This document shows, one piece after another, positions 2,510 through 29,401 of a stretch of 36,450 nucleotides of DNA. The first letter of the stretch is position 1. Each line of letters starts with the position of its first letter. The translations under genes and the position numbers were made by a program. Source of the DNA: a virus; IMG/VR virus record IMGVR_UViG_3300017963_000507, positions 1 through 36,450 of that record; one strand, written 5' to 3'. The notes beneath the pieces were generated by a model. The model saw only the letters and a list, made by a program, of their open reading frames with translations. It ran no database searches and was not told where the DNA came from.

Positions 2510-2543
2510 AATATTTTGCTAGAAGGCCAGCAAACACACAACA

Positions 2544-2600
2544 GGGAAGGGTCAAATATTAATCGATCTCTGTATATTTGGAAGAGCCCTTCCCGTTTTT
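2544..2600 (+). terminator. Leader terminator or attenuator
   Basis: The outer arms GGGAAGGG (2544-2551) and CCCTTCCC (2587-2594) and the inner arms CAAATAT (2553-2559) and ATATTTG (2574-2580) build a long hairpin followed by GTTTTT. It lies between the promoter at 2481 and the first gene at 2653, so read-through or antitermination is needed for expression downstream. No leader peptide is evident. Confidence 0.65.
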
Positions 2601-2652
2601 CCTTTCAAAAAAATAAATTGCTGATAAAATATGGTTAACCGGGAGGTTTAAA

Positions 2653-3054
2653 ATGAATATTTCTCCGACGGTGAGTGTAGCACCAACAATAGATCTACAC
2701 CAAGAATTTGCTTTTGCAGAAAATACTGATACCTGTGGATGTTGCGGATGCTTTAAATCTAAGACTGTACGGCCCAAACAAGAGGTCTACGTAAATAAGC
2801 ATGGACAAATTGAAAAGTTCCGCGACAAGGGTAATATGTTTCAATCGAGGCTGCGAGCTAATTCTCACCTGGCAGAACTGGTTAAATCAAGGTTTGCCGA
2901 TGACCCTATAGCCAACGATGAGGCATTTAAAACATTAAGAGAAAGACTAAACCACGATTTTGAAGAAGATCCCGTGACAGCAGAAAAACTTATTGTAATC
3001 ATTGAAGGGATTTATTCTCTGAAGTCTGAGATAAGCTCACAGTGTTCTGATTGA
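2653..3054 (+). CDS. Unidentified protein with a CGCCGC motif (133 aa)
   Basis: The start is ATG at 2653 with the SD GGGAGG. Residues 28-33 are C-G-C-C-G-C, a dense cysteine cluster that could bind metal. The region after it is basic (KSKTVRPKQ), and the C-terminal half is helical and acidic. There is no signal peptide. It is the first gene after the leader terminator. The family is not recognised. Confidence 0.65.
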   Translation: MNISPTVSVAPTIDLHQEFAFAENTDTCGCCGCFKSKTVRPKQEVYVNKHGQIEKFRDKGNMFQSRLRANSHLAELVKSRFADDPIANDEAFKTLRERLNHDFEEDPVTAEKLIVIIEGIYSLKSEISSQCSD

Positions 3055-3139
3055 AGCTCTATCGAAGTTATTTTTTCATATAAGCAACATTTTTGTAGAA
3101 TTAAAATTCTATCAAGAATAGTCTAGAAAAATTGAAAGC

Positions 3140-3224
3140 AAAAAAAGCCCGTCCTAAAAAGACGGGCATGGTCACTAGAAGCCAGGTTACTACCCTGGCG
3201 GCTTCTGGTGAAGCCTACGACTTT
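3140..3224 (-). ncRNA. Antisense small RNA in the leader of the replication gene
   Basis: On the leftward strand a perfect -10 box (TATAAT, 3231-3236) is followed by about 85 bases ending in a textbook terminator: stem GCCCGUC/GACGGGC (3147-3167), then seven U. The body can fold as AGAAGCC/GGCUUCU with an inner CCAGG/CCUGG helix (3177-3206). Alternatively the middle GGCTTC (3200-3205) can pair with GAAGCC at 3210-3215, so the two hairpins exclude each other. The -35 is poor. The layout recalls phage C4 antisense RNAs and plasmid countertranscribed RNAs, from memory only. The 370 bases from 3055 to 3423 hold this RNA and no convincing gene. Confidence 0.5.
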
Positions 3225-3423
3225 CGAAACATTATAAAACACCACACTCAGGAAAGAGATTTGTCTATAATGACCGAATCAAAGTCATTGACTACATTAT
3301 TCCACTTTTCAAGGATAAAAACAATCTTTTTTAAGATTATTTCCAAGAAGAAGTGGAAGAAGTGCAATAAGGTTATCTTCTTCCTGGGAAAAAAGCAACA
3401 ACTTTCTCAAGGGGGAAATTATT

Positions 3424-4314
3424 ATGATCAAACAAAACCAATCATCAGCAGAAATCTACGCTGAAGTCCTTTTAACACAAAAAGAACCCGCTTATTACGC
3501 TCAAGTGCCCTCTAGCGTTTTTTATTGTACTTATATAGAGACCGATAACGAAGGTAACCGTATAAGGAAAAAGCTAAGTAGCAATGCTATTGCTCTATAC
3601 ACACTGTTGAGAAGTGTTGCAGGCTCTAAGGGGGCCTGTTGGATGAATACAAAACATCTAGCCGAATTACTTGGGAGATCGCCGAGTGTCGTAAGTGAAT
3701 CAAAAAAAGAGCTTCAACAACCAATGGAGCAGCTTAACGATAAACCGCTTATTAGTATTGAAAACAAAACTAAGCGAAGAATGGATTCTACTGGGGGCAC
3801 AAAGTATCATGTCATTACAATAGAATTCATATGGCCGGAAAACAATGCATTTATGGCTACTCGAAAACATTGGACCAATCCGAATGTTCATAACTCCAGG
3901 TCGGATTCGGATATAGAATCTGAGAACAGCTCGGATTCGGATATAGAATCTGAGCCCCCAGGCTCGCGTTCGGATATAGAACCAAATAACAGAATACAGA
4001 AGAAGAACCATTCTGTAACAGAAGAACCACCCGGCGATGCCGGCGATGTCTGTTTACCTATCGGTACTGATTCTGTAAATTCTGTACAGGAAGAATACCG
4101 GAAACAAAGAGAACGTACGGAAAGTCAACTTAGGAAATTCGGATGCGATAATAATTTCATTAAAGAAATGTTAAAACGCTTCACACCAAAACGCATCCTA
4201 AATGGAGGGATATATACTTGTGAACAACTCAAAAGAAAAGCCATTGGGAATCGATTCGGCTATCTCCGCAGAGCAATAGAAGATGGCAGGGAATGGATCT
4301 TTACCGAAAATTAA
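3424..4314 (+). CDS. Replication initiator-like protein with winged-helix N-terminus
   Basis: This 296-residue protein has a putative helix-turn-helix domain at about 50-100: helix LSSNAIALYTLLRSVA, then MNTKHLAELLGRSPSVVSES. It resembles the DNA-binding halves of phage O-type and plasmid initiators. Residues 160-190 are a low-complexity Ser-Asp-Glu linker (SDSDIES repeated) whose DNA forms three palindromic iterons. The C-terminal part is basic and helical. Start ATG at 3424 with SD AAGGGGG. The arrangement matches lambda O, where the origin iterons lie in the middle of the initiator gene. The leftward small RNA at 3140-3224 covers its leader. The initiator role is inferred from domain, iterons and position; no helicase loader is recognised. 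Confidence 0.62.
   Translation: MIKQNQSSAEIYAEVLLTQKEPAYYAQVPSSVFYCTYIETDNEGNRIRKKLSSNAIALYTLLRSVAGSKGACWMNTKHLAELLGRSPSVVSESKKELQQPMEQLNDKPLISIENKTKRRMDSTGGTKYHVITIEFIWPENNAFMATRKHWTNPNVHNSRSDSDIESENSSDSDIESEPPGSRSDIEPNNRIQKKNHSVTEEPPGDAGDVCLPIGTDSVNSVQEEYRKQRERTESQLRKFGCDNNFIKEMLKRFTPKRILNGGIYTCEQLKRKAIGNRFGYLRRAIEDGREWIFTEN
3901..3987. repeat. Three palindromic iterons, probable replication origin
   Basis: Two identical 24-bp units (3901-3924 and 3931-3954) are 30 bp apart, and a third diverged unit (3964-3987) lies 33 bp further on. Each has a dyad around the core GGATATA: GATTC/GAATC arms in units 1 and 2, GTTC/GAAC arms in unit 3. The arms of unit 3 changed on both sides, keeping the symmetry. 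The spacing is close to three helical turns. Downstream DNA is A-rich. Confidence 0.65.
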
Positions 4315-7029: not shown

Positions 7030-7347
7030 TCAGGCGTATTGTAGATCTCTGGTAAGAAACTTATCACACAACAAATCATGCCAAATTAAAGCTTCTTCCT
7101 TCGTCTCATACCTTTTTGAAAATATACAATCGTTTGGATTGGCAGTAGTGTCAAAAATAACAGTTTCATAAATTCTTATTCGATCATCAAGTAGATTCCT
7201 GTCATGGCCAACCCACACCGTGCTAACCAAAAAATGCTCATCTTGGTTTTTGCCGAGGACTCGATATTGTGGATCTGTAAAAAGTTCTGAAAACTCATCC
7301 AGAGTTATTTCTTTACCTTTTTTATCATAATATTTTGTGTTCAACAT
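7030..7347 (-). CDS. Unidentified protein (105 aa)
   Basis: Start ATG at 7347 with a weak SD (AGGAT), separated by one base from the stop of the gene before it. The product is mixed alpha/beta, with an aromatic acidic core (RIRIYETVIFDTTANP) and a C-terminal helix (YETKEEALIWHDLLCDKF). That helix resembles small phage proteins with a duplicated strand-helix unit. No motif gives a function. Confidence 0.6.
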   Translation of the reverse strand: MLNTKYYDKKGKEITLDEFSELFTDPQYRVLGKNQDEHFLVSTVWVGHDRNLLDDRIRIYETVIFDTTANPNDCIFSKRYETKEEALIWHDLLCDKFLTRDLQYA

Positions 7348-7348
7348 T

Positions 7349-7678
7349 TTAAAATCCTATACGTTCAAATGCACTTAATAAATGTTTTTGGAGAATATCC
7401 TCCGCATTAACATGCGCCTCAAACTCTTCTTTATCAAGCGCATATTCAATTTTTTCCCTCAATCTATCTGGCAATTCATTAATATCAAAATCATAATTTT
7501 CCACAAAGAATAAAACTGAATTTGATAAATAATCAGAGTCTGTATCTTCTAAATGCTGGAATAATGTCCAAACATGGTCTAAATGCTTCTCAACAAAATC
7601 CTTTCTAGCCATTTCATCCCTAACAACCCTTCGAACCTTCTCTTCATCTAATTCTTGCATTATTCTGTCTTTGTTCAT
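7349..7678 (-). CDS. Acidic helical protein, unidentified (109 aa)
   Basis: I chose ATG 7678 (MNKDRIMQELDEEK) rather than the upstream ATG 7741 because AAAAAAGGG lies before it and the longer form would overlap the previous gene. The product is very acidic and helical throughout, with no cysteine cluster or signal. Strong negative charge is typical of DNA mimics and host-protein binders, but nothing specific supports that here. Confidence 0.6.
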   Translation of the reverse strand: MNKDRIMQELDEEKVRRVVRDEMARKDFVEKHLDHVWTLFQHLEDTDSDYLSNSVLFFVENYDFDINELPDRLREKIEYALDKEEFEAHVNAEDILQKHLLSAFERIGF

Positions 7679-7719
7679 GGTAATACCCTTTTTTAAAGGG
7701 GCAATAAGCCCCTGATTTG

Positions 7720-8004
7720 TTAATATGATCTGATTTCCCAAACCTCAATATTTGGCTTCTTGTAATACTCAAGTGAACTCTCGTCAATAAGCCCATCTTC
7801 AATCATTCGTTTGTAGTCAATGGCACCAGCACGCTCTCGTTTGGTTACCTTAATTCCATACTCCATTCTGTCACCGCCAACATTGGCAATAATATCTTCG
7901 CGAAGCTCCTTATATTCCGCCTCAAGCTCTTTGCGCTTACTCAAAATATCACGCATCTTTTGACACATTAACTCGTAGTGATCTATAAATAAATCTTCTA
8001 ACAT
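7720..8004 (-). CDS. Recombination-associated small protein resembling a YqaJ C-terminal tail (94 aa)
   Basis: Residues 1-40 are a helical, charged coiled region (SKRKELEAEYKELREDI). Residues 45-94 read GGDRMEYGIKVTKRERAGAID-YKRMIEDG, then LEYYKKPNIEVWEI. This resembles the tail found after the nuclease core in YqaJ/lambda-exonuclease-type phage recombinases, here without any nuclease core. Its leader is the same 17 bases as that of the ERF gene, which supports a link to recombination. The resemblance is from memory of the family and needs a profile search. Confidence 0.5.
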   Translation of the reverse strand: MLEDLFIDHYELMCQKMRDILSKRKELEAEYKELREDIIANVGGDRMEYGIKVTKRERAGAIDYKRMIEDGLIDESSLEYYKKPNIEVWEIRSY

Positions 8005-8006
8005 GG

Positions 8007-8210
8007 CTAAACTCCTTTTTCGCTTGAGCTGTAAACATCATCTACTGGCTCAGTTATTGAAATTGAAAAACCAATGTCTGCAAATAGTGCAATCTGATTT
8101 TCCGTAAAACTCTTTCTTCTAAGAATCGAAAGCAAACCCGCTGCCAGCTTATTTCTTGGGTAATACCTTCGGTGCCCAAATTCTACTTTTCTCAAAAGCT
8201 CAAGTATCAT
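8007..8210 (-). CDS. Small basic protein, unidentified (67 aa)
   Basis: First gene of the leftward operon: ATG at 8210, SD AAGGAG, 28 bases from the promoter -10 box. The product starts MILELLRKVEFGHRRYYPRNK, with a basic, aromatic patch, then a helix (LAAGLLSILRRKSF). Its 3' end overlaps the leader of the next gene. Confidence 0.55.
   Translation of the reverse strand: MILELLRKVEFGHRRYYPRNKLAAGLLSILRRKSFTENQIALFADIGFSISITEPVDDVYSSSEKGV
8008..8024 (-). promoter_or_regulatory. Extended SD leader, copy 3
   Basis: AGCGAAAAAGGAGTTTA, identical over all 17 bases to the leader of the ERF gene 6.5 kb away, stands three bases before the ATG at 8004. It lies within the last codons of the preceding gene. 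Confidence 0.65.
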
Positions 8211-8237
8211 GGTTTGTCTCCTTGTTTGTATAGCATA

Positions 8238-8266
8238 TATATATCACACACGCGACATGTATGCAA
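8238..8266 (-). promoter_or_regulatory. Leftward promoter of the 7030-8210 operon
   Basis: On the leftward strand TTGCAT, a 17-base spacer and TATATA lie just upstream of the ATG at 8210. Confidence 0.55.
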
Positions 8267-8289
8267 GAAAAAAAAGAAAAAAGAAATTC

Positions 8290-8318
8290 TTGTCGTAAAA
8301 ATATGCAAAAGTTATATT
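8290..8318 (+). promoter_or_regulatory. Rightward promoter before the terminase genes
   Basis: TTGTCG (8290-8295), a 17-base spacer and TATATT (8313-8318). It is divergent from the leftward promoter 24 bases away, so this 190-bp gap is a two-way control region opening the late block. Confidence 0.5.
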
Positions 8319-8402
8319 TCATAATATGATCATTGTAGTAGCTGTCACATGTACATATATAGCTATATTCATAGGATCATATCTAATAACAAAAAGGTTT
8401 TT

Positions 8403-8603
8403 ATGATTGAGCTTAGCGTAACAGTTAAGGGTGATACAGAAACAGGGGATGATTGCACATATAAACAAAAATTCCTCATTCATGATATCTTTGAGATGAT
8501 GGACACAGACCCAGTCATTAAGGGTTGTATAGAACAAACTTTAGCAAACGCAAAAATAACGCCAGACGATATAAGAGTTAGGGCGTTAATGGTGGTGAAA
8601 TAA
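8403..8603 (+). CDS. Small unidentified protein before the terminase (66 aa)
   Basis: I chose ATG 8403 (MIELSVTVKGDTE) rather than the ATG at 8349, which lies in the promoter region; AAGG precedes 8403. A beta-rich first half is followed by helices (IFEMMDTDPVIKGCIEQTL). It overlaps the small terminase gene by one base (TAATG) and is probably co-translated with it. Confidence 0.6.
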   Translation: MIELSVTVKGDTETGDDCTYKQKFLIHDIFEMMDTDPVIKGCIEQTLANAKITPDDIRVRALMVVK

Positions 8604-9016
8604 TGGTAAATGCTGGAGGAAGACCTAGAGATTGGGATTACTCAGAAATGGCAGGAAAAATACTTGAATGGGCAAAAAAGAAAGATAGCGTAAATTTAAA
8701 CGCTTTTTGTTGCGAACATGAGCCACCATTTCCCCCCCCTTATGTATCAAGATGGGCAAGAGAAAGTGAGGAGTTCCGTTCAGCATATGAAACAGCAAAG
8801 TCGTTTTTAGCAAATAGAAGAGAGAAAAAACTTACAGCAAACGAACTACATGTTAAAGCTTATGATCTAAACGCAACAACATATGATTACTTCTTAAAAG
8901 AAGAAAAAATGCGCGAAAAGGAGTTTGACGCAGAGGTTAAACGAAAAGCATTTGAAGAAGGATCTGCCGATCTATCGGATTACAAAGCATGGTTGGAACA
9001 GAGCACGAAAAAGTAA
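8603..9016 (+). CDS. terS: Terminase small subunit
   Basis: A 137-residue protein directly upstream of and overlapping the large subunit. The N-terminal part (GGRPRDWDYSEMAGKILEWAKK, then AFCCEHEPPFPPPYVSRWARES) is a helix-turn-helix of the terminase small subunit type that recognises the packaging site. The C-terminal half is a long charged helix for ring assembly (KEEKMREKEFDAEVKRKAFEE). It would form an oligomeric ring on phage DNA and hand it to the large subunit. Confidence 0.72.
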   Translation: MVNAGGRPRDWDYSEMAGKILEWAKKKDSVNLNAFCCEHEPPFPPPYVSRWARESEEFRSAYETAKSFLANRREKKLTANELHVKAYDLNATTYDYFLKEEKMREKEFDAEVKRKAFEEGSADLSDYKAWLEQSTKK

Positions 9017-10497
9017 CATTGTCGGAGCATGTTGTTCTCTGTCATGAGAATCCACTTTATCGTATAGAGAATAACTATTTTATTATTACGAAAGAGAGTG
9101 AGAAAAAGCTTTTCAAGCTCAATGCTCAGCAGCGTGATATCTTCGACAATAAACACAATCGAAACCTTGTTCTTAAAGCTAGACAGATAGGGAGTTGTCT
9201 AGATCCCAACACATTGGTTTTAAAAGCAGATATGACTTGGGAAAGAATCGGAAACATGAAACCAGGTGATGAAATCGTGAGCGTAGACGAACATGCGCAC
9301 GGTATCAGGGGAAAGGGTCGACGTTTACGGCGTGGAGTAGTGCAGGGTGTCAAGTGGGATAGAAAAGAATGTTATAGAATCACATTTGATAATGGAAAAC
9401 AATTAATTTGCACCGCCAGACATCCATGGTTATCACGAAAAACAAACACTGGGTATGATTGGAGAAGCGTTGAAGACACTGGGAATAACGGTAATAAGAA
9501 GCTAAAGGTCGGCACAAAGATACGCCGAATATGCGATGGAACATGGGAAGCAGGCGATTACGAAGATGGTTGGATAGGTGGGATGTTAGATGGTGAAGGC
9601 TTTCTTGCAAAAAAAAATAGGGTGGGAGGATGTTTGGCTATTAGCCAGGTAGAAGGACCTGTGTTTGATAGGTTAAAGAGGTATTTCAAAACAAAAGGAT
9701 ATAACTATACAATTCAGGTAGATAATAAACCAGAAAGAAAATCAAAGTTTGGCAAAACTGCTGTGAAGAAAGTGGTTTTAAGTAGAATAGATGAAATATT
9801 TCGTCTTCTTGGGACAACAAGGCCATCACGGTTTCTGTGTAGGGATTGGTGGGAGGGTAAAGAACTTCCAAGAATTGGCGGGGAAGCTTGCGCCACAATC
9901 ACAAAGATTGAAAACATTGGGGAAAATGATATTGTCGACTTACAGACGTCAACTGGAACATATATTGCTGAAGGATTCGTTTCTCATAATACAACGTTCT
10001 GGTGCCTGTACATGCTTGACAAGGCACTCTGGAACGCAAATCAAACGATCGGTATCATCAGCCATAGCATGGAGAGCGCGCAGGGGATATTCAGGCGCAT
10101 TAGATATGCAGTTGATAACATGCATCCAGAGCTGAAGGCGGCGGTAAAGGTTAAGCAGGACAGCGCTAGACAGCTAGTATTCGGCAACAACTCACTCATA
10201 CGAGTAGACACTACGATGCGTGGAGAAACGCTCTCGGGACTACTTGTAAGCGAATTTGGTAAGATTTGTGCTAGATGGCCACAAAAGGCAAACGAGGTGA
10301 TGACCGGGTCTCTTCAAACTCTCTCGGCTAAGGCAGAAGTTGTTCTTGAGTCAACGGCGGAAGGGTCAGACGGGTATTTTTGGGAGCTATGTCAAAGGGC
10401 TATGGCTCGTGGGAATGAGGATTTAAGCCCGTTAGAATTCAAGCTACACTTTTATCCATGGTGGAGCGAGTCTACCTATTCTATGGAATCCATATGA
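8989..10497 (+). CDS. terL: Terminase large subunit, ATPase half, with intein
   Basis: This is the ATPase part of the packaging motor. Residues 43-69 (FKLNAQQRDIF...NLVLKARQIGS) end inside the P-loop, which resumes at residue 335 (TTFWCLYMLD) after a 265-residue intein. After splicing the loop reads KARQIGSTTF, the usual deviant Walker A of terminases. Then come the Walker B-like LLVSEFGKIC and the coupling motif VVLESTAEG. The frame closes after YPWWSESTYSMESI at a TGA that overlaps the ATG of the nuclease half. The spliced N-terminal product would be 237 residues, about half a normal terminase. The start overlaps terS by 28 bases. Confidence 0.85.
   Translation: MVGTEHEKVTLSEHVVLCHENPLYRIENNYFIITKESEKKLFKLNAQQRDIFDNKHNRNLVLKARQIGSCLDPNTLVLKADMTWERIGNMKPGDEIVSVDEHAHGIRGKGRRLRRGVVQGVKWDRKECYRITFDNGKQLICTARHPWLSRKTNTGYDWRSVEDTGNNGNKKLKVGTKIRRICDGTWEAGDYEDGWIGGMLDGEGFLAKKNRVGGCLAISQVEGPVFDRLKRYFKTKGYNYTIQVDNKPERKSKFGKTAVKKVVLSRIDEIFRLLGTTRPSRFLCRDWWEGKELPRIGGEACATITKIENIGENDIVDLQTSTGTYIAEGFVSHNTTFWCLYMLDKALWNANQTIGIISHSMESAQGIFRRIRYAVDNMHPELKAAVKVKQDSARQLVFGNNSLIRVDTTMRGETLSGLLVSEFGKICARWPQKANEVMTGSLQTLSAKAEVVLESTAEGSDGYFWELCQRAMARGNEDLSPLEFKLHFYPWWSESTYSMESI
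9196..9990 (+). mobile_element. Intein with single-motif LAGLIDADG endonuclease (265 aa)
   Basis: All splicing blocks are visible: Cys1 with CLDPNTLVLKADMTWERIG (block A), TARH at residues 142-145 (block B, catalytic Thr and His), IVDLQTSTGTYIAEGF (block F) and the end VSHN (block G), with Thr as the first C-extein residue. Between B and F lies one LAGLIDADG helix, GWIGGMLDGEG at 194-204, with its catalytic Asp and no second copy, so the nuclease is of the dimerising kind. The insertion is between Ser69 and Thr335 of the P-loop, so the motor is inactive until splicing. Confidence 0.92.
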
Positions 10498-11315
10498 AAA
10501 GAGAACAAATACCACAGCATCTTGAGCAGTATTTCATTGATTTGCGCGATAAAGAAGGTATAGAACTCACCCAAGGACAAAAGAACTGGTATTATGCTAC
10601 ATGGAGAACCCTCGGTGATAAGGTCAAACAAGAATATCCCAGTACGGAAAATGAAGCCTTCATGGCAAGCGCAGACGCTTACTTCTATGCCATTGAGATA
10701 GCAGGGGCCCGTAAAGATTCGCGCATTATACCTCTCAAATATGACCCAGAACGCTTTGTATATGTTGCGTTTGACCTAGGTGTTTTTGATTACACGGTTC
10801 TCTGGTTCTTCCAATATTACGACCAGAATGTCTATTTCATCGACTACTACGAAGATCACAACAAGTCATACGACTTCTACATTAAGTTCATGCTAGAAGA
10901 GAAGCGATACAATTACGGGACGATATATCTACCACATGACGCAGCAAAACGAGACGAGGTCACACTACTCAGCTATGCCGATAAGGTGAGAAATATGCTA
11001 ACAGAAAAGCATATAGATGTTCATGTGCTTAGAAGGGATGACATCATCATTGGGATAAATCTAGCAAAGGTTCTGCTCAATAGGTGTTTTTTGGATACTA
11101 GTAAATGCGCTCAAGGGATAGACCATCTCAGTAAATACAAGAGGAAGTGGAAGGAAGGTGCTGGGTGGATACATGAACCACTTCACAACGAGCATTCTCA
11201 CGCAGCCGACAGCTTCAGAATGGCTGCGATATCACTAGATTTTGTGAAAGCAAAAGGATCTAATTTTAATTCAAGACATCAAGATGCGCTGAGCGCTGTG
11301 CAAAGAATGATTTAA
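10494..11315 (+). CDS. terL: Terminase large subunit, nuclease half
   Basis: This frame continues the terminase: EQIPQHLEQYFIDL, LTQGQKNWYYATWRTLGD, EYPSTENEAFMAS, then the RNase H-like nuclease with VAFDLGVFDYTVLWFF (first catalytic Asp), the FIDYYEDH strand, YLPHDAAKRDE and the closing NEHSHAADSFRMA (third acidic site). It is 273 residues from ATG 10494, which overlaps the TGA of the ATPase half as ATGA. With the spliced ATPase half the total is 510 residues, normal for the family. Reinitiation, a -1 shift or a sequencing indel are all possible. Confidence 0.82.
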   Translation: MKREQIPQHLEQYFIDLRDKEGIELTQGQKNWYYATWRTLGDKVKQEYPSTENEAFMASADAYFYAIEIAGARKDSRIIPLKYDPERFVYVAFDLGVFDYTVLWFFQYYDQNVYFIDYYEDHNKSYDFYIKFMLEEKRYNYGTIYLPHDAAKRDEVTLLSYADKVRNMLTEKHIDVHVLRRDDIIIGINLAKVLLNRCFLDTSKCAQGIDHLSKYKRKWKEGAGWIHEPLHNEHSHAADSFRMAAISLDFVKAKGSNFNSRHQDALSAVQRMI

Positions 11316-11378
11316 AGAGTCTTTGCTATAAAAGATGAATTAGGTAATATAAAATTAAATAAATATGCCGGGGTTGCT

Positions 11379-13478
11379 ATGGGGAATGAAGACAAATTCG
11401 CTGAAATAAAGAATGAATACGAAGAAAACTGGAGACGTGGTGAAGAGGAGTGGGGCGAGCTTTGGAACTTCATGGACAGAGATTTACGCGCTTATGCAGG
11501 AAATACATGGACGCGAGCAGAGCTTAATCAACTTATTGTAGAAAAGCGGGAGGCTATTGAACTTCCCCTTATTCGTAGTAAAATCAACTGGTTTACAGGA
11601 TATCAAAGAGACAATATCCGATCGATGGAGATTGAACCTGTAGAATCTTCCGATCAAGAGACGGCAGATCAGCTAAGTAAAGTTTTAAAACAGGTTTGGT
11701 ATCGTGGACAGGGGCAATATCATTGGAACCAGGCTTTTGAGGATTCTGTTAAGACTGGCCTAAGTCTTTTTGGGATGTATCTTGATTTTTCTAATGACCC
11801 AATAAATGGGGACATTAAATTCTATCGACGTGGATATAACAGTTTTGTAATAGATCCAGATACTGAGCAGCCAGACCTTAGTGATTGCAGCTGGGTTATT
11901 CTTAGGGACTTTGTCACAAGAGACCAGGCTGGTCAACTTTTACCATTCATTGAAGATGAAGTTATACAGAATGTTGCACCAAGTGTTCGCGATAACAAGT
12001 TCATTTATTTAAGACCTTATAGTAGAAATTTTAACAATCCAAATATAATTACATTTGATCAATATTACCGTAGATCTTCTGAAAGAAAAAAACTTTTGGT
12101 AGATATTCAGTCTGGGTCTGCTAGAGATATTTCCAATATTTCTAAGGAAGAACTTCAAAAGCTAGAGATGGGCATTGATGTATTAAAGCAGACAGGAGAG
12201 GCTACATTAGAAATAAGGGACGAGGATAGGGAAATTGTTGAGTATAACATACTCTTGTCAGGAGAGGTTGTGTTTTCGGGAAAAGACGCAATTGGACTAG
12301 AGAATCGCTATCCTTTTGTCCCTGTTCACTGCTTTTTCGAGCCATCTGTAGAAAATATGGTTTATAGATATCAGGGTATTGTCCGCAGTTTATATGACGC
12401 TCAGCGTATATATAATAAGCGCAATATGAAAGTGCTTGATATCATGGATAAGGTAATCTATGGAAGTACAAAATATATGCTTGGGTCTGTTGACGACCCT
12501 CGTCAATTGTTACAGTCCGGTACCCGTAGACTCATTGGTATTCAGCCGGGCTATTCGATGGATGATGTGCAAGATCAGCAAGCTAATACTTCTGGTATTG
12601 CTGAGATAATACAATATTCACAGGTGATTGATCAGCTTTTCAATGATCTGGCAGGTGTCAATGATACACTTTTAGGATCTGACGAGGGTGGAAATACACA
12701 AGTTTCTGGACGTTTAGCACAGGTCAGAACTGCAAATGGTGTTAGGGCTAATAGAAAGATATTCGATCAGCTCGACTTTAGTCAAAAGTTGCTTGGTCAT
12801 CTTTTGATTGAATCTGTTCAAAAGAATTATACGCCTCAAAAAGTTCAAAGAATGATCAACGAAGAACCGTCACAAGAGTTTTATGATAAGAGCTTTGGAA
12901 TATATGATGCTGTTGTAAAACAAGGTGTTGAGAGTGAAACACAACAAGATCAATATTACTTTGAGCTTGTTAATCTTAAACGCGAGGGTATTGTGGATGT
13001 TCCTCAATCTGAGATACTTAAAGCGCTTCCTTTAGTTGGCAAGTCAGACCTTGTAGAGTCTATAGAGGCTCAGCAGGAGCAGGCACAGCAAGAAGCTCAG
13101 AGGGTGGCTGAACTTGAACAGATGCAAAAAGAGCTAATCAATTCTCAGACAGAGCAGAACATAGCGCTCAGTCAAGAGAGAAGAGCTAGGGTCGTAGCAG
13201 ATATTGGGTTGGCTAAGGAACGCGCCTCTGAGGCTGAACAAAATAGGGCATCAGCTGCTTTGGATAGGGCAAAGGCTATGACAGAGATACAAAATCTCAA
13301 ACAAGATCAGATTCTGAAGGTTATGGAATTTGTTAATATGCTACAGATGCAAGAACAGGCTCAGCAGGAAAAGGAAGAAACGGATGTAAATTTAGAAAGT
13401 GATTCAATCATGAAGATGACGGAACTAAAACAAAATATGAAGTCTGGTGAAGCAAATGCCGAGCAAAAAGAAATATAG
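11379..13478 (+). CDS. Portal protein, P22 type
   Basis: A 699-residue portal that forms the dodecameric DNA gate at one capsid vertex and docks the terminase. The core carries the expected order: the N-terminal helix region with WTRAELNQLIVEKREAIEL, INWFTGYQRDN, a KFYRRGYNSFVIDPDTEQPD wing, and the clip/stem region with RYPFVPVHCFFEP and YDAQRIYNKRNMKVLD. The last 150 residues are Gln- and Glu-rich helix (for example QQEQAQQEAQRVAELEQ), the long barrel of P22-like portals. Start ATG at 11379 with a GGGG SD. It follows terL directly, the canonical order. Confidence 0.88.
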   Translation: MGNEDKFAEIKNEYEENWRRGEEEWGELWNFMDRDLRAYAGNTWTRAELNQLIVEKREAIELPLIRSKINWFTGYQRDNIRSMEIEPVESSDQETADQLSKVLKQVWYRGQGQYHWNQAFEDSVKTGLSLFGMYLDFSNDPINGDIKFYRRGYNSFVIDPDTEQPDLSDCSWVILRDFVTRDQAGQLLPFIEDEVIQNVAPSVRDNKFIYLRPYSRNFNNPNIITFDQYYRRSSERKKLLVDIQSGSARDISNISKEELQKLEMGIDVLKQTGEATLEIRDEDREIVEYNILLSGEVVFSGKDAIGLENRYPFVPVHCFFEPSVENMVYRYQGIVRSLYDAQRIYNKRNMKVLDIMDKVIYGSTKYMLGSVDDPRQLLQSGTRRLIGIQPGYSMDDVQDQQANTSGIAEIIQYSQVIDQLFNDLAGVNDTLLGSDEGGNTQVSGRLAQVRTANGVRANRKIFDQLDFSQKLLGHLLIESVQKNYTPQKVQRMINEEPSQEFYDKSFGIYDAVVKQGVESETQQDQYYFELVNLKREGIVDVPQSEILKALPLVGKSDLVESIEAQQEQAQQEAQRVAELEQMQKELINSQTEQNIALSQERRARVVADIGLAKERASEAEQNRASAALDRAKAMTEIQNLKQDQILKVMEFVNMLQMQEQAQQEKEETDVNLESDSIMKMTELKQNMKSGEANAEQKEI

Positions 13479-13632
13479 TGATAATGATTCTCGTGAAGAA
13501 AGTACAATCAAAAAGGTTATGAAGTCGGCAAAAGTTGCAAAAAGCCGAGCGATAGCAATTTTAAAATCCAAAGGGGTTTTAAAGCAGAAAGGGGGCAAAA
13601 ATGGCCTTCTTATCAAGAAAAAGAAAAAATAG
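13456..13632 (+). CDS. Small lysine-rich protein (58 aa)
   Basis: I took ATG 13456 (MPSKKKYSDND), which overlaps the end of the portal gene, over the ATG three codons earlier. The product is extremely basic in its second half and ends in a lysine run. It is probably a small DNA-binding or capsid-interior protein. It shares the short YSDxD motif with the next gene. Confidence 0.55.
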   Translation: MPSKKKYSDNDSREESTIKKVMKSAKVAKSRAIAILKSKGVLKQKGGKNGLLIKKKKK

Positions 13633-13642
13633 GAGACTAGAA

Positions 13643-13885
13643 ATGGTCAGAAACAGAAATTATAGCGACAAAGATCCTATGGGTGGAAAGGGCTATGGCC
13701 CCATGAAATCTCCAGGGATGGGTCGCGGCGTTAACTCTGTTAAGCTGAAAAATCCTGCTCCAAAGCCAGAAAGAGGTGGATTTGATGGTGGCATTATGGT
13801 GCAACCTGATGCTTCAAAAGCTCGATCTATGGTAAAGCAGGAATATTCAAAAAGAGAGTCTGGACGTGGTAAAGGGACACTCTAA
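13643..13885 (+). CDS. Small Gly/Lys-rich protein (80 aa)
   Basis: ATG 13643 has the SD AGGAG eight bases upstream, so the longer open frame from 13601 is not used. The product is basic, Gly- and Pro-rich and probably disordered (MGGKGYGPMKSPGMGRG). Its start, NRNYSDKDPM, recalls the preceding protein. Position between portal and scaffold suggests a minor virion or assembly role. Confidence 0.6.
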   Translation: MVRNRNYSDKDPMGGKGYGPMKSPGMGRGVNSVKLKNPAPKPERGGFDGGIMVQPDASKARSMVKQEYSKRESGRGKGTL

Positions 13886-13928
13886 TCTTATTTTACCCGA
13901 TCGTTATGTTCGGGAACATAAGGAATCG

Positions 13929-14231
13929 ATGGCTGATGAATTTAATAAATCACTTGAAAAGGTGGTTAATGATAATCAGTATCGTGATAGGCCCTATTTT
14001 GTGTCTTATCATGAAAATGACGACAAGGTTAACAGTAAAATCATTCGTGGAAAATGGAATTCCTCTTATGAGCTTCCTGTTCGATGGGCAAGACAGATTG
14101 TCTTTGTTGTAGATAACAAAAAAGGCTTTAAAGAGTGGATTTGGACAGTAGACGACAATAAGAAAACATTCTTCAATGTCGAAGGTATTAAGAGGGCAAA
14201 AGAGCGAGGAGCTCTAACCCAAGTAAAATAG
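13929..14231 (+). CDS. Unidentified head-module protein (100 aa)
   Basis: ATG 13929 with AAGGAA upstream is preferred to the in-frame GTG at 13866. The protein has a charged helical N-terminus and then beta-rich, tryptophan-containing segments (PVRWARQIVFVVDNKKGFKEWIW). It lies between the portal and the scaffold; its role is unknown. Confidence 0.55.
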   Translation: MADEFNKSLEKVVNDNQYRDRPYFVSYHENDDKVNSKIIRGKWNSSYELPVRWARQIVFVVDNKKGFKEWIWTVDDNKKTFFNVEGIKRAKERGALTQVK

Positions 14232-14296
14232 TGTCGCCGACTTACGGGCGTGACACGGGAAAGCTGCCGCCGAGCATAACGGGCGAAAGGATAAAT

Positions 14297-14938
14297 ATGA
14301 CGGATACCGTGGCCGAGGAACAAGAAACTGCTGAAGAAGTTGTTGATGAGGTTCTTGAGCATGCTAATGCAGAAGAGAACCTCGAACAAGAAACACAGCA
14401 GGAAAAAGAAGAAAAGAAAGAGGAGTTTGTTCCAGTTTCTGCACAGATTGCCGAGAGAAGAAAACGGCAAGAAGCTGAAGAAAGGGCACGATGGCTTGAA
14501 CAGCAGATGTCCCAGATGCAACAGCAGAAAGAGCCAGAACCAGACAATAGCGATGATTTGCTAACGGTCGGTCAACAGGCTCAGGCTCTAAACGAATGGA
14601 AAAGATCTATTCTAGAAGAGTCATATATGGAGAACAATCCTGATATCGTTGAAAGAATAAAAACAGAATTGCCTGAGGTTTTAGAAAATCCAGGCAATAA
14701 GTGGCTTGCCGATTCCATTGCCCAAGCCCCAAATAGATTGCAACGAGCAGCGCAGGTATTAGAGATGTTTAAACCAAAGAAGCCGGTGGCAGCACCGCCA
14801 ATAGATCGTACTAATACGCCTAAATCGCCACAATCTATGGCAAAGACTAATAAACTATCAATAGCTGATAGGATTATGACAATGTCTGATCAGGAGCTTG
14901 ATGAATGGAGGGTTAGCCAAAAACGAAAAATCAGATAA
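14297..14938 (+). CDS. Capsid scaffolding protein
   Basis: A 213-residue acidic protein directly before the capsid gene. Residues 1-90 are Glu- and Gln-rich and helical with many charged heptads (ERRKRQEAEERARWLEQQ), residues 150-180 are Pro/Ala-rich, and the C-terminal 30 residues are a basic helix (MSDQELDEWRVSQKRKIR), the usual capsid-binding end of scaffolds. ATG 14297 with SD AAAGGA is used; the GTG at 14231 would only add a GC-rich hairpin region. Identity rests on composition and position. Confidence 0.7.
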   Translation: MTDTVAEEQETAEEVVDEVLEHANAEENLEQETQQEKEEKKEEFVPVSAQIAERRKRQEAEERARWLEQQMSQMQQQKEPEPDNSDDLLTVGQQAQALNEWKRSILEESYMENNPDIVERIKTELPEVLENPGNKWLADSIAQAPNRLQRAAQVLEMFKPKKPVAAPPIDRTNTPKSPQSMAKTNKLSIADRIMTMSDQELDEWRVSQKRKIR

Positions 14939-14950
14939 GGAGATTTTTTG

Positions 14951-15211
14951 ATGGGCGTAACAACAACCAGCACTTATGGGACAGTCGTTGACAAGTTTTT
15001 TCACCGACGACTCCTAAAAAGAGCGAAGCCTCGGTTTATTTTTAATAACTTTGGCCAAGTTCGTATGATGCCACAAAAAAATACAACACGACTAGCGTTT
15101 AGACGTCAAGAGAACCTTGATTCTGATCCTGTTGTATTAACTGAAGGGGTATCACCGGCTTTTGATCAAGTATATAACTTTGATGTTGAAGTTGAATTGC
15201 AGCAGTACGGT
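14951..15211 (+). CDS. Major capsid protein, exon 1
   Basis: The first 87 codons of the capsid gene, starting with ATG 14951 behind SD AAGGAG, not the TTG at 14948. The exon ends at TAC GGT, with U as last base. It encodes the N-arm and first part of an N4 gp56-type fold: VVDKFFHRRLLKRAKPRFIF, KNTTRLAFRRQENLD, GVSPAFDQVYNFDVEVELQQYG. Without splicing, translation stops four codons into the intron and gives a useless fragment. Confidence 0.85.
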
Positions 15212-15867
15212 ATCGCAGCATAACTTTGCCGTAGTAAAACCCTGAATAATTACTTGGGAAGCCTAATGGGAAACCTATGGTAACCAGAGGCAAGGGATTA
15301 ACAAGAACGAGAATTAAGATGTTTGAGCTGAAGATAAAAGGATTCACGAAGCGAGAGGAGTTCGGGAGAAATACGATTTCTCTTTTTGTCGATGGTCTGT
15401 CTAAATTTTATCATGATTTCAGCTTGTTCATTCTTGATTTTAAGGTGAGGAAGCAACATTTGACACAAGTCAATAATTCCAGCTTTTTCATAAACCCATT
15501 CATAACGAGTTTTCCATTTTTGGTGTTTTCTGCTATAAGTAAGACCGCCGAATGTTTTGGAAATCCACTCTATAAGAGGGTAATGGGTATTGACGACATA
15601 GACTCTAGCAACATATTTTCGGGAACGAGACTTATAGATATTGAAAGTCCCTTCGCCGTCAATTATGCCAGCAAGATACGCAATGTCGCTCGTTTGATGT
15701 TTGACATGAGTGGTATTAGTCATATGACTAAGTATACCAAAGATGTTGTTAATTGTCTAGCCGCAACGACTAAATTTTGGGGCAGCCGAGAGGCTGAAGC
15801 GATAGTCTGAACTTGCGGGAAACCGTAAGAGGGGAGGTCGAAGTACCGCCCCCGCCTAGGAAACTAG
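15212..15867 (+). mobile_element. Group I intron in the capsid gene (656 nt)
   Basis: The exon end UACGGU pairs with the guide GCCGUA at 15228-15233, giving the required U-G pair at the splice site. Near the 3' end are P7 strands GACUA and UAGUC around a P8 hairpin CAGCC-GAGA-GGCUG, then a P9 hairpin CUUGCGG-GAAA-CCGUAAG and a further stem GGGGaGGU/ACCgCCCC. The intron ends in G at 15867 (CUAG), and removal joins GGT to GTC in frame. Its interior is mostly a LAGLIDADG gene on the opposite strand. Confidence 0.88.
15298..15723 (-). CDS. LAGLIDADG homing endonuclease, antisense within the intron
   Basis: A 141-residue single-motif LAGLIDADG protein: YLAGIIDGEGTFNIY at 16-30 with catalytic Asp22, then GGLTYSRKHQKWKTRYEWVY, and PHLKIKNEQAEIMIKF, the usual substrate-binding and closing helices of this family. 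It would act as a homodimer that cuts intron-free capsid alleles. It is encoded on the strand opposite to the intron and all flanking late genes. No good SD precedes ATG 15723, and no clear leftward promoter was found. The rightward ORF over the same bases (15277-15810) is its shadow. Confidence 0.85.
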   Translation of the reverse strand: MTNTTHVKHQTSDIAYLAGIIDGEGTFNIYKSRSRKYVARVYVVNTHYPLIEWISKTFGGLTYSRKHQKWKTRYEWVYEKAGIIDLCQMLLPHLKIKNEQAEIMIKFRQTIDKKRNRISPELLSLRESFYLQLKHLNSRSC

Positions 15868-16566
15868 GTCATAAAAGTAACAGAGCTGAAAGTAGTTGCA
15901 TTAAGTGACAAAGTAATCATTGCTGTTGAGGATGATACAGCTGTTGAGACAGCTGACAACCTGAATCAAGCTATGTGGGGGATGCTCGACAAAGTTACTC
16001 GAGACACCCTAACGGCGACAGCATCTATAATCCAGTGTTCTAACGGTGTGAACGGAAACACCCCAACAGAGGTAACACAAGATGATGCAGAGCTTGCTTT
16101 GGATTATCTTTACCAGAATGATGCTGAGAAGATGGCTCCAGTTATTGAAGGTGTTAATCGATTTGGAACAGCTCCAATAGACGAGTCTTACTGGGTTCTT
16201 TCTGACACAGATATGAGGTCTGACTGGAAGGCTCTTGAGTCTTTCATTCCAACTAGCCAGTATCCGGGACAGACAGCTGTTCTTCAGGCTGAATTTGGTG
16301 CTATAGACGAGGCTCGTATAGTATTGTCGTCTCAAGGTGGAGTCGATACTACAACATCTCCGGCTACTTACCATAACCTATTTATCGGTTCTGGTTTCTA
16401 TGCCCATTCAGGCATTGATGAAGTGGCTGCTGAGATTATTATCAAGGAACTTGGTCAAGGAGAAGACTATCTTAACCAGCGCCAGACTATGGGTTTTAAA
16501 GCTTTCTTTGGAGCACTTATCCTAGATGACAACTTCGGCGTTAACCTACAAAGCACATTGGCATAA
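15868..16566 (+). CDS. Major capsid protein, exon 2 (N4 gp56 family)
   Basis: Exon 2 restores the frame (VIKVTELKVVALSDKV) and gives 232 residues, making a capsid protein of 319 residues in all. Family features: helix NLNQAMWGMLDKVTRDTLTA, then DAELALDYLYQNDAEKMAPV, the GVNRFGTAPIDESYWVLSDTDMRSDWK signature, and FGAIDEARIVLSS. This matches N4 gp56-type HK97-fold capsids. The next gene follows 11 bases later with a strong SD (AAGGAGG). Confidence 0.85.
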   Translation, partial: VIKVTELKVVALSDKVIIAVEDDTAVETADNLNQAMWGMLDKVTRDTLTATASIIQCSNGVNGNTPTEVTQDDAELALDYLYQNDAEKMAPVIEGVNRFGTAPIDESYWVLSDTDMRSDWKALESFIPTSQYPGQTAVLQAEFGAIDEARIVLSSQGGVDTTTSPATYHNLFIGSGFYAHSGIDEVAAEIIIKELGQGEDYLNQRQTMGFKAFFGALILDDNFGVNLQSTLA

Positions 16567-16577
16567 GGAGGTAAATA

Positions 16578-17279
16578 ATGTCTGATATATATCTAGGGCA
16601 AACAATGACAAAGAAGTACCGGCTTATTGCTGGTGCTACTGCTTATACCATTAGTGATGTTGGATTTCTTCCAGATCACATTGTGGTAACACGAATTGAT
16701 AGCGCATTTGGAACGGCGGCTAATATCTCTCGTTCTGAATTCTATCGAGACATGACCAATGCTGATGCATTGCAATTCAGAAGTGTTGCAGATAATGGTG
16801 TAACTGGGAATACCTCACTTGTTTTTGAGACAACGAATGGTATTACTATCACTACTAATGCGGCTGGTGTAACTACTTCTCGATCTGCGGTTGGTGCCAT
16901 TACAGGCGCTACAGCTGCAAATCCAGTTGTTATCACTGATGCTGCTCATGGCCTTAGTGATGGGGATATTATCCGCATTACTGGCGTGGTCGGAATGGTA
17001 GAATTAAATAATCGCAGATTTAGGGTGGCAGATAGCGCTACAAATACATTCTCTCTTCAGGATCCTGAAACAAGAGAAGCTATTGATGGTACTAACTATA
17101 CCGCTTATACATCTGGTGGACAATGGAACTTACTCAGTAGAGAAGATGCCGATAGGGACGTTTACGACGCAGTTACATATGATGTTACACTTGGAACAGC
17201 AGTTCTAACAAATGACATCGAACATGTGGTTGAGATGTTCAAGGCAGGTTCAGTCGAGGATCTGGGAGATATTGGTTGA
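16578..17279 (+). CDS. Virion protein with an E1-FCCH-like beta domain (233 aa)
   Basis: Residues 1-105 are a beta-rich head domain (DVGFLPDHIVVTRIDSAFG). Residues 106-185 form a small barrel: AITGATAANPVVITDAAHGLSDGDIIRITG, MVELNNRRFRV, TFSLQDPETREAIDGTNYTAYTSGGQW. This resembles the domain that automated annotation of phages calls ubiquitin-activating E1 FCCH, though no ubiquitin chemistry is implied. It recurs in the next gene and in the hub protein at 19549. Position after the capsid suggests a decoration or head-completion protein. Confidence 0.6.
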   Translation: MSDIYLGQTMTKKYRLIAGATAYTISDVGFLPDHIVVTRIDSAFGTAANISRSEFYRDMTNADALQFRSVADNGVTGNTSLVFETTNGITITTNAAGVTTSRSAVGAITGATAANPVVITDAAHGLSDGDIIRITGVVGMVELNNRRFRVADSATNTFSLQDPETREAIDGTNYTAYTSGGQWNLLSREDADRDVYDAVTYDVTLGTAVLTNDIEHVVEMFKAGSVEDLGDIG

Positions 17280-17332
17280 TGTTGATAATCAATGGTTTAT
17301 GATTAAGCCTTGGTAATAAAACGGTAACTATT

Positions 17333-17352
17333 GGCGGGGATTCGTCCCCGCC
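17333..17352. repeat. GC-rich hairpin with UUCG loop
   Basis: GGCGGGGA, TTCG, TCCCCGCC: a perfect 8-bp stem with a stable tetraloop, followed by ATTATGAG rather than a U-tract. It stands between the two FCCH-domain genes and may block exonucleases or slow polymerase after the highly expressed capsid genes. Confidence 0.6.
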
Positions 17353-17366
17353 ATTATGAGGTTAAC

Positions 17367-17672
17367 ATGTCTGGAGTAACAGAAATAAGAGGCGATATCA
17401 CGGGAGTCACGATAGCAAATCCTCCCGTCGTCACATCAGCTGCACATGGACTATCAGATGGCAATATTGTCCGGATAACACAGCTTGGTGGAACAGTAGA
17501 GTTAAACAATGGTAGATATCGGGTCAACAACACAACTACAGATACATTTGAACTTCAGGATCCAGATAACCATGAAGATATAGATGCAAGTGATTTTACC
17601 ACCTATACATCAGGTGGCCGGTGGAATCGCACAAATCGCGATGATGCCGACAGAGTTTTTTATGAAGCGTAA
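17367..17672 (+). CDS. Stand-alone E1-FCCH-like domain protein (101 aa)
   Basis: ATG 17367 with GAGG is the start; the open frame extends upstream only through the hairpin. The whole protein is one copy of the barrel domain of its upstream neighbour: NPPVVTSAAHGLSDGNIVRIT, TVELNNGRYRV, TFELQDPDN, FTTYTSGGRW, ending DDADRVFYEA like the neighbour's EDADRDVYDA. It arose by duplication of that C-terminal part. Confidence 0.65.
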   Translation: MSGVTEIRGDITGVTIANPPVVTSAAHGLSDGNIVRITQLGGTVELNNGRYRVNNTTTDTFELQDPDNHEDIDASDFTTYTSGGRWNRTNRDDADRVFYEA

Positions 17673-17768
17673 GCAGATGTGTTCCTTATGGAGATCGTTA
17701 AGGAAAAAAATTACTGAAATAACATAGAATTAGTTATAAATCACATTTAATAGAAAAAGGAGGCCATC

Positions 17769-18179
17769 ATGCCATTAACAGCCGAACAAAAAAGAAGAAA
17801 AAAGGTTTCTCAAGAGATGAAAAAGCTTCCACTGAAGACATTGGAAGACTACAAAGCATTTAACGAAAAAGCCAGGTCAATGGGTATGCCAGTAAAACCC
17901 GCTCCTGATGATTTGCACGAGCATATAAAAGTTAAATTCTTAAGGCGAGATGGTATGACCCATCCAGTATCTTTGAAGTTTAGAAATGAATTCATTGACT
18001 TTGAAAAGAAAGTCTATCATGGAAAAGTTTATGAATTACCAAAACTTGTAGTGAAACAATATCAAGAATTAGGTATACCTAAATATAGACAACATAAGAA
18101 TGCTGTAACTGGGGAGAGTGAGACGGTGTTTTCTCATAAAGATCCTAGGTTTGCATTCCAAATAGTTTTGGATGACTAA
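17769..18179 (+). CDS. Unidentified structural-module protein (136 aa)
   Basis: Start ATG at 17769 with SD AAGGAGG. A basic helical N-terminus (AEQKRRKKVSQEMKKLPLKT) is followed by a beta-rich part (HIKVKFLRRDGMTHPVSLKF and VFSHKDPRFAFQIVLDD). It overlaps the connector gene by one base. An inverted repeat TTCCTTA/TAAGGAA (17682-17705) lies in its leader. Possibly a head-completion protein. Confidence 0.6.
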   Translation: MPLTAEQKRRKKVSQEMKKLPLKTLEDYKAFNEKARSMGMPVKPAPDDLHEHIKVKFLRRDGMTHPVSLKFRNEFIDFEKKVYHGKVYELPKLVVKQYQELGIPKYRQHKNAVTGESETVFSHKDPRFAFQIVLDD

Positions 18180-18883
18180 TGGCGAATTTTACATTTTCAA
18201 GAGTTATAGAGATTATGCGTCGTGTAATAGCTCGGCGTAATCAAACGGATACTCTTAGTACCGATGTCGAGTTACTGAACTACATAGGCGAGTTTATGCG
18301 GGATCTAATGCCGCAGGAGACGAAGAATTTTGAGAACCTCGCAACTTATGAGTTTGATACGATTGCCGATACTGAGGAGTATGATTTCAATAGTGGTGAT
18401 GGAGCTGATATAAATGGGATAGTTTTCGAAAACATTGGTCCTATAGCCTATTGCGATGAACAGTTGATGAATTGGTATCAGGATCCATCAATTTTCTATG
18501 ATAAATGGGGATTCAATACAGACGTTACTACTGTGACAACTTCACAGCCGCAGGATGTTTTGTTCTATAACGATGCATTTGTTCTTAAAAATAGGCCAGA
18601 TGATACTTATCGTATCAGAATATTTGGTTATGCAAGAAATGCTGATTATACTACTGAGTCGACATCATCTACTATAGAGGCTGAAACAGCAAATGCAGGA
18701 ATTCCAGAAAACTACTGGGGCCGGTATGTGGCTTATGGAGCTTCATTGGATTACATGTATGATTTTGGTTATGATCCACAAAGAATCCAGGTTGTTGAGT
18801 TGAGATATAAGCACTATAAGAGTCTTATTCAATCAAGGACATTTAATCAGTTTATGCAAGAAACACCACTTCAGAGGTTTTAG
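18179..18883 (+). CDS. Head-tail connector or tail adaptor protein (234 aa)
   Basis: The N-terminal helices FSRVIEIMRRVIARRNQTDTL, VELLNYIGEFMRDLMPQE are typical of podovirus gp4-like adaptors that sit below the portal. The middle is beta-rich (YEFDTIADTEEYDF), and the C-terminal part is helical, with NYWGRYVAYGASLDYMYDF and RYKHYKSLIQSRTFNQFMQE. Neighbours fit: capsid before, hub protein after. The family is inferred from architecture. Confidence 0.6.
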   Translation: MANFTFSRVIEIMRRVIARRNQTDTLSTDVELLNYIGEFMRDLMPQETKNFENLATYEFDTIADTEEYDFNSGDGADINGIVFENIGPIAYCDEQLMNWYQDPSIFYDKWGFNTDVTTVTTSQPQDVLFYNDAFVLKNRPDDTYRIRIFGYARNADYTTESTSSTIEAETANAGIPENYWGRYVAYGASLDYMYDFGYDPQRIQVVELRYKHYKSLIQSRTFNQFMQETPLQRF

Positions 18884-18885
18884 AT

Positions 18886-19548
18886 ATGACATGGGATGCA
18901 AGCGTGCCAGATGGTACAAAAACGGCCAAAGATAATGGGCCTGGAATTAGGAATAACTGGAGTTATATCGAGACAGAGATACAAGATGACCATTATTTCG
19001 ACGAGAGCGCAACAAACGATGGTCATCACAAGAAAACAGAGATGCCTGTCGTTGAAGATAGTGGAATTGCTGTAGATTCGAATAAGGATCCTTCTGGTTT
19101 GTCTTCTGGAATGGTTGGAATGATTTACATGAGACAAAAAACAGCTACAGAATGTCCGTCAAAGCAAACAAATGAATCATACTATGCTTTAAAAGATGGT
19201 TCTACCATGCGTTATTCGCAATTAGGGATAAGGGCTATGGTTAATTTTAAAGGAAGGACGAGTAATGGTGCCTGTACTATAAACTATAGCCACAATGTGA
19301 CAAGTGTTTCTCGTACAGCTGAGGGTAAATATACAGTTACTTTTTCTGTTGGTCAGCCAACGTCATTTTATATACCAATGGGTTCAGCAATGAGAAGTTC
19401 AGGAAGTCCTTTGTTAATAGGTGTTCAGAGTGCTGCATCTTATTCAACTTCTGTAAATAGCAAATGGATAAAGATAACTACAACGTCTAGTGATAGTGGT
19501 TCAGAAAAAGATTGTGTGAATGCAATGATTGCATTTGTGGGTGGTTAA
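18886..19548 (+). CDS. Beta-rich virion protein, possibly head or tail fibre (220 aa)
   Basis: Start ATG at 18886, three bases after the adaptor stop. The first 60 residues carry a motif seen at the start of many phage fibres and decorations (WDASVPDGTKTAKDNGPGIRNNWSYIETEI, residues 2-31), a binding arm. The remainder is small-residue beta sheet ending in VNAMIAFVGG. The adhesive role is inferred from composition. Confidence 0.5.
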   Translation: MTWDASVPDGTKTAKDNGPGIRNNWSYIETEIQDDHYFDESATNDGHHKKTEMPVVEDSGIAVDSNKDPSGLSSGMVGMIYMRQKTATECPSKQTNESYYALKDGSTMRYSQLGIRAMVNFKGRTSNGACTINYSHNVTSVSRTAEGKYTVTFSVGQPTSFYIPMGSAMRSSGSPLLIGVQSAASYSTSVNSKWIKITTTSSDSGSEKDCVNAMIAFVGG

Positions 19549-28630: not shown

Positions 28631-28726
28631 GCCGTAAGCTAGGAATATAACCTTGCATTAATTAACATGTAATGGTAAATTATTCTTAGCTATCCTTTAG
28701 AGAGCTAGGGTAGCCCCCGAAAAGCC
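28265..28726 (+). repeat. 462-bp direct duplication, copy 1
   Basis: Covers the tip domain of the long fibre plus 96 bases after its stop. It aligns without gaps to 28797-29258 at an offset of 532 bases. Confidence 0.9.
28635..28726 (+). ncRNA. 92-nt structured RNA element, copy 1
   Basis: Begins five bases after the fibre stop. Helix 1: AGGAATA (28641-28647) with UAUUCUU (28681-28687), then ACC/GGU, then the tip stem UUGCAU (28653-28658) with AUGUAA (28667-28672) around UAAUUAAC. Helix 2: GCUAUCC (28689-28695) with GGGUAGC (28708-28714). It ends CCCCCGAAAAGCC. A weak terminator-like GCCAG/CUGGC stem with a later U-run follows at 28724-28753. Confidence 0.65.
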
Positions 28727-28778
28727 AGATTCCGACTGGCCTGCTCTCTTTTTCATCGGATTAACTACGGAGGTTAAA

Positions 28779-29162
28779 ATGTCTACATGGAAAAATGGTA
28801 TCGATCTCCAACCCAGTATAGGAAGTGTTTTATTCGGTACTGGTATGATAGTTCCAGTCTTGTCAACAAACACTGCTGGCGCTCCATATACTTTGGATGG
28901 TGGCGATTATTTCGTTACAACCGATTCAACTGGCGGTGCTTTCCAGATCAACATGCCTGCTGCTCCAGCTACAGGCCAGCAATATATCATCTATGATGGC
29001 GCTGGTCAGGCTGCGATTGGAGGCGCGATCACGATAAGTGGCAATGGCAATAATATAGTCTGCGAGGGCTCCAGCGCTGCAACCTATGTCATGAATGGTG
29101 CATATGAGTCAATCTCAATGGTTTACAACGGAACACTCTGGCTTGCCAGGTACTCAATATAG
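28779..29162 (+). CDS. Stand-alone fibre tip protein (127 aa)
   Basis: ATG 28779 with SD GGAGG. The product is a short N-terminus (MSTWKNGIDLQ) joined to an almost identical copy of the tip domain of the preceding long fibre, with few changes (for example VVPV to IVPV, ending RYSI not RYST). It could be an extra receptor-binding subunit, a trimerisation cap or a translational reserve of the tip. It arose by tandem duplication together with the RNA element. Confidence 0.72.
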   Translation: MSTWKNGIDLQPSIGSVLFGTGMIVPVLSTNTAGAPYTLDGGDYFVTTDSTGGAFQINMPAAPATGQQYIIYDGAGQAAIGGAITISGNGNNIVCEGSSAATYVMNGAYESISMVYNGTLWLARYSI

Positions 29163-29258: not shown

Positions 29259-29401
29259 AAAGAGAATGTATCACAAGTGTCCCACATTCTGTTCGCAAGA
29301 TTGCTATAAAGCAAAGAAAAGGGATAGCCTGGTCCCAAGTAAAGCTTGACGATTAAAATTTCTGCTGTCATTATAAAATCACATAAAAATAAGGAGAGAC
29401 T

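Follow-up and report, generated by a model that had tools for sequence, protein, structure and literature searches.

The question raised by this locus is what a short RNA, apparently read leftward just before a rightward replication initiator gene, would do for the phage that carries it, and whether it matches any regulatory RNA already described in phages or plasmids. The window (the whole stretch of DNA analysed, a 36.45-kb virus record) has a G+C content of 39% and carries genes for a P22-type portal, a terminase, an Erf-like annealing protein, an exonuclease and tail fibres; no integrase or repressor was recognised among its scanned proteins. No DNA kin of the window was found in phage or plasmid records; it is an orphan, unclassified phage with a P22-type portal.

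Genomic setting and anatomy of the predicted leftward RNA

The RNA locus is surrounded by an O-like initiator gene, an HNH-like ORF and further ORFs that fit no recognised family (Table 1). Assignment of the initiator as lambda-O-like is based on weak, concordant profile matches, namely phrog_345 ("replication initiation O-like", E-value = 8.8e-5), phrog_19658 (E-value = 5.6e-5) and PF13730 HTH_36 (E-value = 9e-5, below the family cut-off). The iteron stretch, which codes for a Ser/Asp/Glu-rich linker of the protein and is located 473-563 nt into the gene, likely marks the origin. For the ORF in the cII position, neither Pfam nor PHROG gave a match that would indicate similarity to CII or C1, and its structure model is of low confidence (pLDDT 47); the models of both this ORF and the initiator were too uncertain for a structure search. 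An overlapping ORF at 3132/3168-3464 was considered as a gene and rejected, its codon score being under that of all other ORFs tested.

Table 1. Features at and around the leftward RNA, in window coordinates.
Feature	Position	Strand	Basis or remark
133-aa ORF in cII position	2653..3054	+	Family not recognised; 85 nt between its end and the end of the leftward RNA
Predicted leftward small RNA, ~85 nt	3140..3224	-	Start inferred from TATAAT, end from terminator
Intrinsic terminator	3140..3167	-	Stem GCCCGTCTTTTTAGGACGGGC (9 pairs) at 3167-3147, T7 tail at 3146-3140; strongest terminator-like site of the window
Alternative helix	3178..3205	-	Forced fold; middle GAAGCC (3205-3200) with distal GGCUUC (3183-3178), not proximal (3215-3210)
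Hairpin 2, GCCAGG-GUAGUAA-CCUGGC	3181..3199	-	Fold; occurs once in window
Hairpin 1, GGCUUC-ACCA-GAAGCC	3200..3215	-	Fold; occurs once in window
Candidate -10, TATAAT	3231..3236	-	Exact motif; no matching -35
Candidate rightward -10, TATAAT	3266..3271	+	Motif; no good -35
Lambda-O-like replication initiator, 296 aa	3424..4314	+	phrog_345, phrog_19658, PF13730 HTH_36
Three iterons, 28 nt each, spacing 30 and 33	3897..3987	+	Inside initiator gene; each contains GGATATAGAA

A preliminary description of this DNA had proposed a leftward TATAAT followed by about 85 bases and a terminator with seven U, and this arrangement was recovered (TATAAT at 3236-3231, RNA at 3224-3140, T7 terminator). The RNA is located wholly within the 369-nt gap preceding the initiator ORF. 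Its terminator, GCCCGUC..GACGGGC plus seven U in the RNA, ranks first in the window-wide terminator scan and opposes all flanking rightward genes; the stretch to its right contains no likely leftward gene as far as 7030, so no other transcript is an obvious candidate for it to stop. A folding energy of -36.8 kcal/mol was obtained for the predicted RNA (z = -4.7; none of 200 shuffles did as well), and it ranks first in stability among the 7280 windows of 85 nt tested. On sequence grounds, the phage appears to transcribe a short and highly stable RNA leftward just before the replication initiator gene, so the small RNA placed at the initiator leader by the preliminary description is well supported, while a full promoter for it is not, the best -35 match being 2/6.

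Homologues of the RNA locus were not found. Searches by initiator, neighbour ORF, portal, terminase and Erf returned only one sibling contig, which is 99.9% identical and spans 7222-19318, leaving the RNA locus outside its coverage, and two distant Erf relatives. A stem-pattern search gave three viral and seven genome matches. All three viral ones look like chance, as they lie inside ORFs with a GYYPG motif, and so do the three of the seven genome matches that were read (L007, L009 and L012), none of which is followed by a terminator.

Some further observations concern other parts of the window. The terminase ATPase ORF at 8989-10497 (+) apparently carries an intein that interrupts its Walker A region (ARQIGS|C...HN|TTF; Pfam intein E-value = 1e-5), and the terminase large subunit is divided between this ORF and the next one at 10458. 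Two adjacent major-tail-protein-like ORFs have a 70% identical stretch in common (16941-17128 and 17439-17626). An int-alpA RNA match at 28698-28766 (+), with 39.4 bits against an Rfam cut-off of 35.8, is found in an unexpected place directly before a tail-fibre-like ORF. It is accompanied by a direct duplication of 464 nt with 94% identity (28264-28727 and 28796-29259), through which a copy of the tail-fibre gene's C-terminal part stands as a small ORF of its own behind the int-alpA-like element; this looks like a tail-tip cassette duplication.

Candidate promoters, possible transcript overlap and alternative folds

The candidate leftward -10 is by itself a weak indication, because the window contains 34 copies of TATAAT, and no sigma-70 site matching at least 9/12 positions was found on the minus strand between 3167 and 4195. 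The RNA had also been described as lying entirely opposite the initiator leader. It does lie within the gap between the genes, and its antisense character depends on where the rightward message begins. A promoter-like site with a 9/12 match is located at 2481-2509, upstream of ORF 2653, and if an early transcript starts before 2653, hence upstream of 3140, the leftward RNA would be fully antisense to the inter-gene leader. If instead the rightward TATAAT drives the initiator gene, the mRNA would start at about 3278, beyond the RNA, and the two units would be divergent, without antisense overlap or complementarity to the initiator leader. A second possible short terminated RNA is seen before ORF 2653 at 2510-2605 (+), next to the same promoter-like site; it would consist of two hairpins and GGGAAGGG..CCCTTCCC followed by GTTTTT.

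Three copies of one hexamer are located on the plus strand (GAAGCC at 3178, GGCTTC at 3200 and GAAGCC at 3210), the sole G+C-rich case of this kind in the window. The preliminary description had assigned a middle GGCTTC with flanking GAAGCC copies to the leftward RNA; the three-copy arrangement is real, and that wording fits the plus strand, whereas the leftward RNA has the complement, a middle GAAGCC able to pair with either flanking GGCUUC. Forced folding of the leftward RNA gave -37.0 kcal/mol for one fold and -34.6 for the other, distal pairing costing 2.4 kcal/mol, and the corresponding plus-strand folds differ by 0.2 kcal/mol (-35.7 vs -35.5). Alternative pairing is genuine as a structural option, and the switch that had been attached to it changes no modelled output: exposure of the O ribosome site is practically equal in both plus-strand leader folds of the leader model. 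Control of that site by a fold switch was consequently rejected, and the models do not support switching between the two folds. The initiator ribosome site itself, AAGGGGGAA, is buried in the leader model in a strong local hairpin (3378-3417, +) that is independent of the upstream folds. The terminator scan found no rightward terminator in the initiator leader.

Proposed action and competing explanations

In the reading that we favour, with a probability of roughly 55%, this is the oop-position RNA of a lambda-type replication module, and it would act as oop/pO does, by convergent transcription together with antisense at the O leader. In lambda, convergent transcription from pO reduces that from pR, with consequences for origin function and replication (PMC3985674), and it is from the analogy with pO that convergent interference and antisense are proposed here. 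Leftward RNA polymerase would meet rightward polymerases that had started at an early promoter before ORF 2653. The 85-nt RNA, perfectly complementary to the O leader, would pair with the rightward message. Both collision and pairing would lower the transcription and message reaching O and the origin, which may tune the timing and frequency of replication starts. We infer here that the RNA is transcribed, that a rightward mRNA covers 3140-3224, and in which direction the effect goes. The strongest terminator, the most stable 85-nt stretch, an O-like gene with iterons and a geometry like that of lambda and P22 argue for an oop-type RNA; the missing -35, the distance by which the RNA falls short of the upstream gene, the lack of CII/C1 similarity in that ORF, the rightward TATAAT at 3266 that could make the units divergent, and the weak profile matches behind the O assignment argue against it.

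An RNA of the plasmid countertranscribed type, which the preliminary description had in mind, would act in trans on the O leader, blocking O translation or provoking RNase III cleavage, with its folds tuning the pairing. Like RNAII of pMV158, for example, it would be antisense to the region before an initiator gene, to which it is perfectly complementary; it has stable stem-loops with loops of 4 and 7 nt, and in the leader model the ribosome site of O is highly structured. Such a mechanism is conceivable provided that rightward transcription begins further upstream. Some 200 nt separate the pairing site from the start of O, though, and pairing would alter neither leader termination, as there is no rightward terminator to trigger, nor exposure of the ribosome site; the loops are devoid of a YUNR motif, and no leader attenuator, translation block or Rfam match was identified here, in which the locus differs from the plasmid systems. 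Moreover, lambda oop leaves the stability of the O-P message unchanged (PMC3985674). We consider this explanation unlikely.

The RNA could also be a stand-alone small RNA divergent from O, trans-acting on host messages in the manner of PreS or VpdS and only incidentally located beside the initiator. Phage small RNAs of similar size that target host messages are known (PMC12197685), and the terminator with its U7 tail and the two divergent TATAAT boxes would suit such an RNA. Against this, when tested on 20 phage gene starts it pairs no better than shuffled RNA does, 39 of 60 shuffles being at least as good. A target within the phage at 34350 was rejected as well, as the seemingly strong duplex no longer stood out from shuffles when self-structure was taken into account. 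A role of this kind is improbable in our estimation. We would give similarly low odds to the absence of any small RNA, in which case the terminator would serve only to halt stray leftward transcripts, with the palindromes functioning in plus-strand mRNA or as DNA. The TATAAT common in the window and here devoid of a -35, and a plus strand that folds almost equally well, are what this explanation draws on; yet its T-tract restricts the terminator to leftward transcripts, a terminator, two hairpins and a perfect -10 coincide at the right distance, and the palindromes occur only once each in the window, unlike an operator set, for which reason they were rejected as operator sites.

A replication-control RNA uncoupled from cII in a lytic or unclassified phage, acting on the O leader only, with the RNA itself or a protein selecting between the two nearly isoenergetic sense-strand folds and so setting O expression, is quite improbable. 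Membership in the C4 family of immunity RNAs, which had been suggested by resemblance, can practically be dismissed: what is shared with C4 is general, namely being a small, structured antisense RNA of a phage that contains hairpins, the C4 covariance model (RF01695) is unmatched at E ≤ 10 by direct search and at E ≤ 5 in a permissive Rfam scan, and no antirepressor gene was recognised by Pfam or PHROG among the neighbours.

No Rfam family reaches gathering level at the locus. The best sub-threshold Rfam match by E-value is anti-hemB (RF02837), which likewise has two hairpins and then a terminator; it scores 19.3 bits, where the cut-off is 49.5, and owes most of this match to the terminator. 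As none of the Rfam families reports the oop RNA of lambda or P22, the silence of Rfam counts against C4 and not against an oop-type RNA. It also indicates a blind spot through which RNAs of the oop type go unannotated.

Comparison with the oop RNAs of lambda and P22

By position and sequence, the predicted leftward RNA lies between a gene in the cII position and an O-type initiator with an internal origin, and it ends at a strong leftward intrinsic terminator. Lambda oop, made from pO, is likewise leftward and short (~80 nt vs 85 nt here), has a 5' hairpin ahead of a strong intrinsic terminator and is located between a small rightward gene and an O gene with internal iterons (O at 38686-39585, iterons at 39034-39118 in the middle of the gene, 348-432 nt from its start). 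On the other hand, the two RNAs have no common sequence when read side by side, without formal alignment, and lambda oop has one long hairpin where two tandem ones are predicted here. Lambda oop starts at O and overlaps cII, whereas the present RNA is located 200-280 nt before O, overlaps no upstream gene and follows an ORF without recognisable likeness to CII. In P22, a leftward oop promoter and terminator are annotated between c1 and the O-like gene 18, which also has an internal origin, and an RNA of 63 nt has been detected (PMC13397905); that RNA is antisense to c1. Overlap with the 3' end of the upstream gene, as with cII or c1, was therefore tested, and it is absent here, since the RNA ends at 3140 and the upstream ORF stops at 3054. 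For this reason we file the RNA as a variant of leftward RNA before O and not as a member of oop.

The position of the terminator was also compared across 11 phages with O relatives, a small sample in which several phages are related to each other. A leftward terminator was found by the scan no more than about 500 nt before O in four of them (lambda, Providencia PSTCR7lys, 720R6 and Midgardsormr38), compared with 25 of 394 other stretches (6.3%) in the same scan, which makes this position meaningful; the terminator of P22 is annotated, yet it was missed by the scan. Should the RNA prove real, O-type initiators would seem to retain a leftward RNA in front of them even where overlap with cII is missing, which would favour the view (PMC3985674) that the replication role of the leftward promoter is separable from its role as cII antisense. 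The RNA is probably a new form, with a build of its own, of the replication-region brakes already known, and it occupies the place that oop RNA has in lambda and P22.
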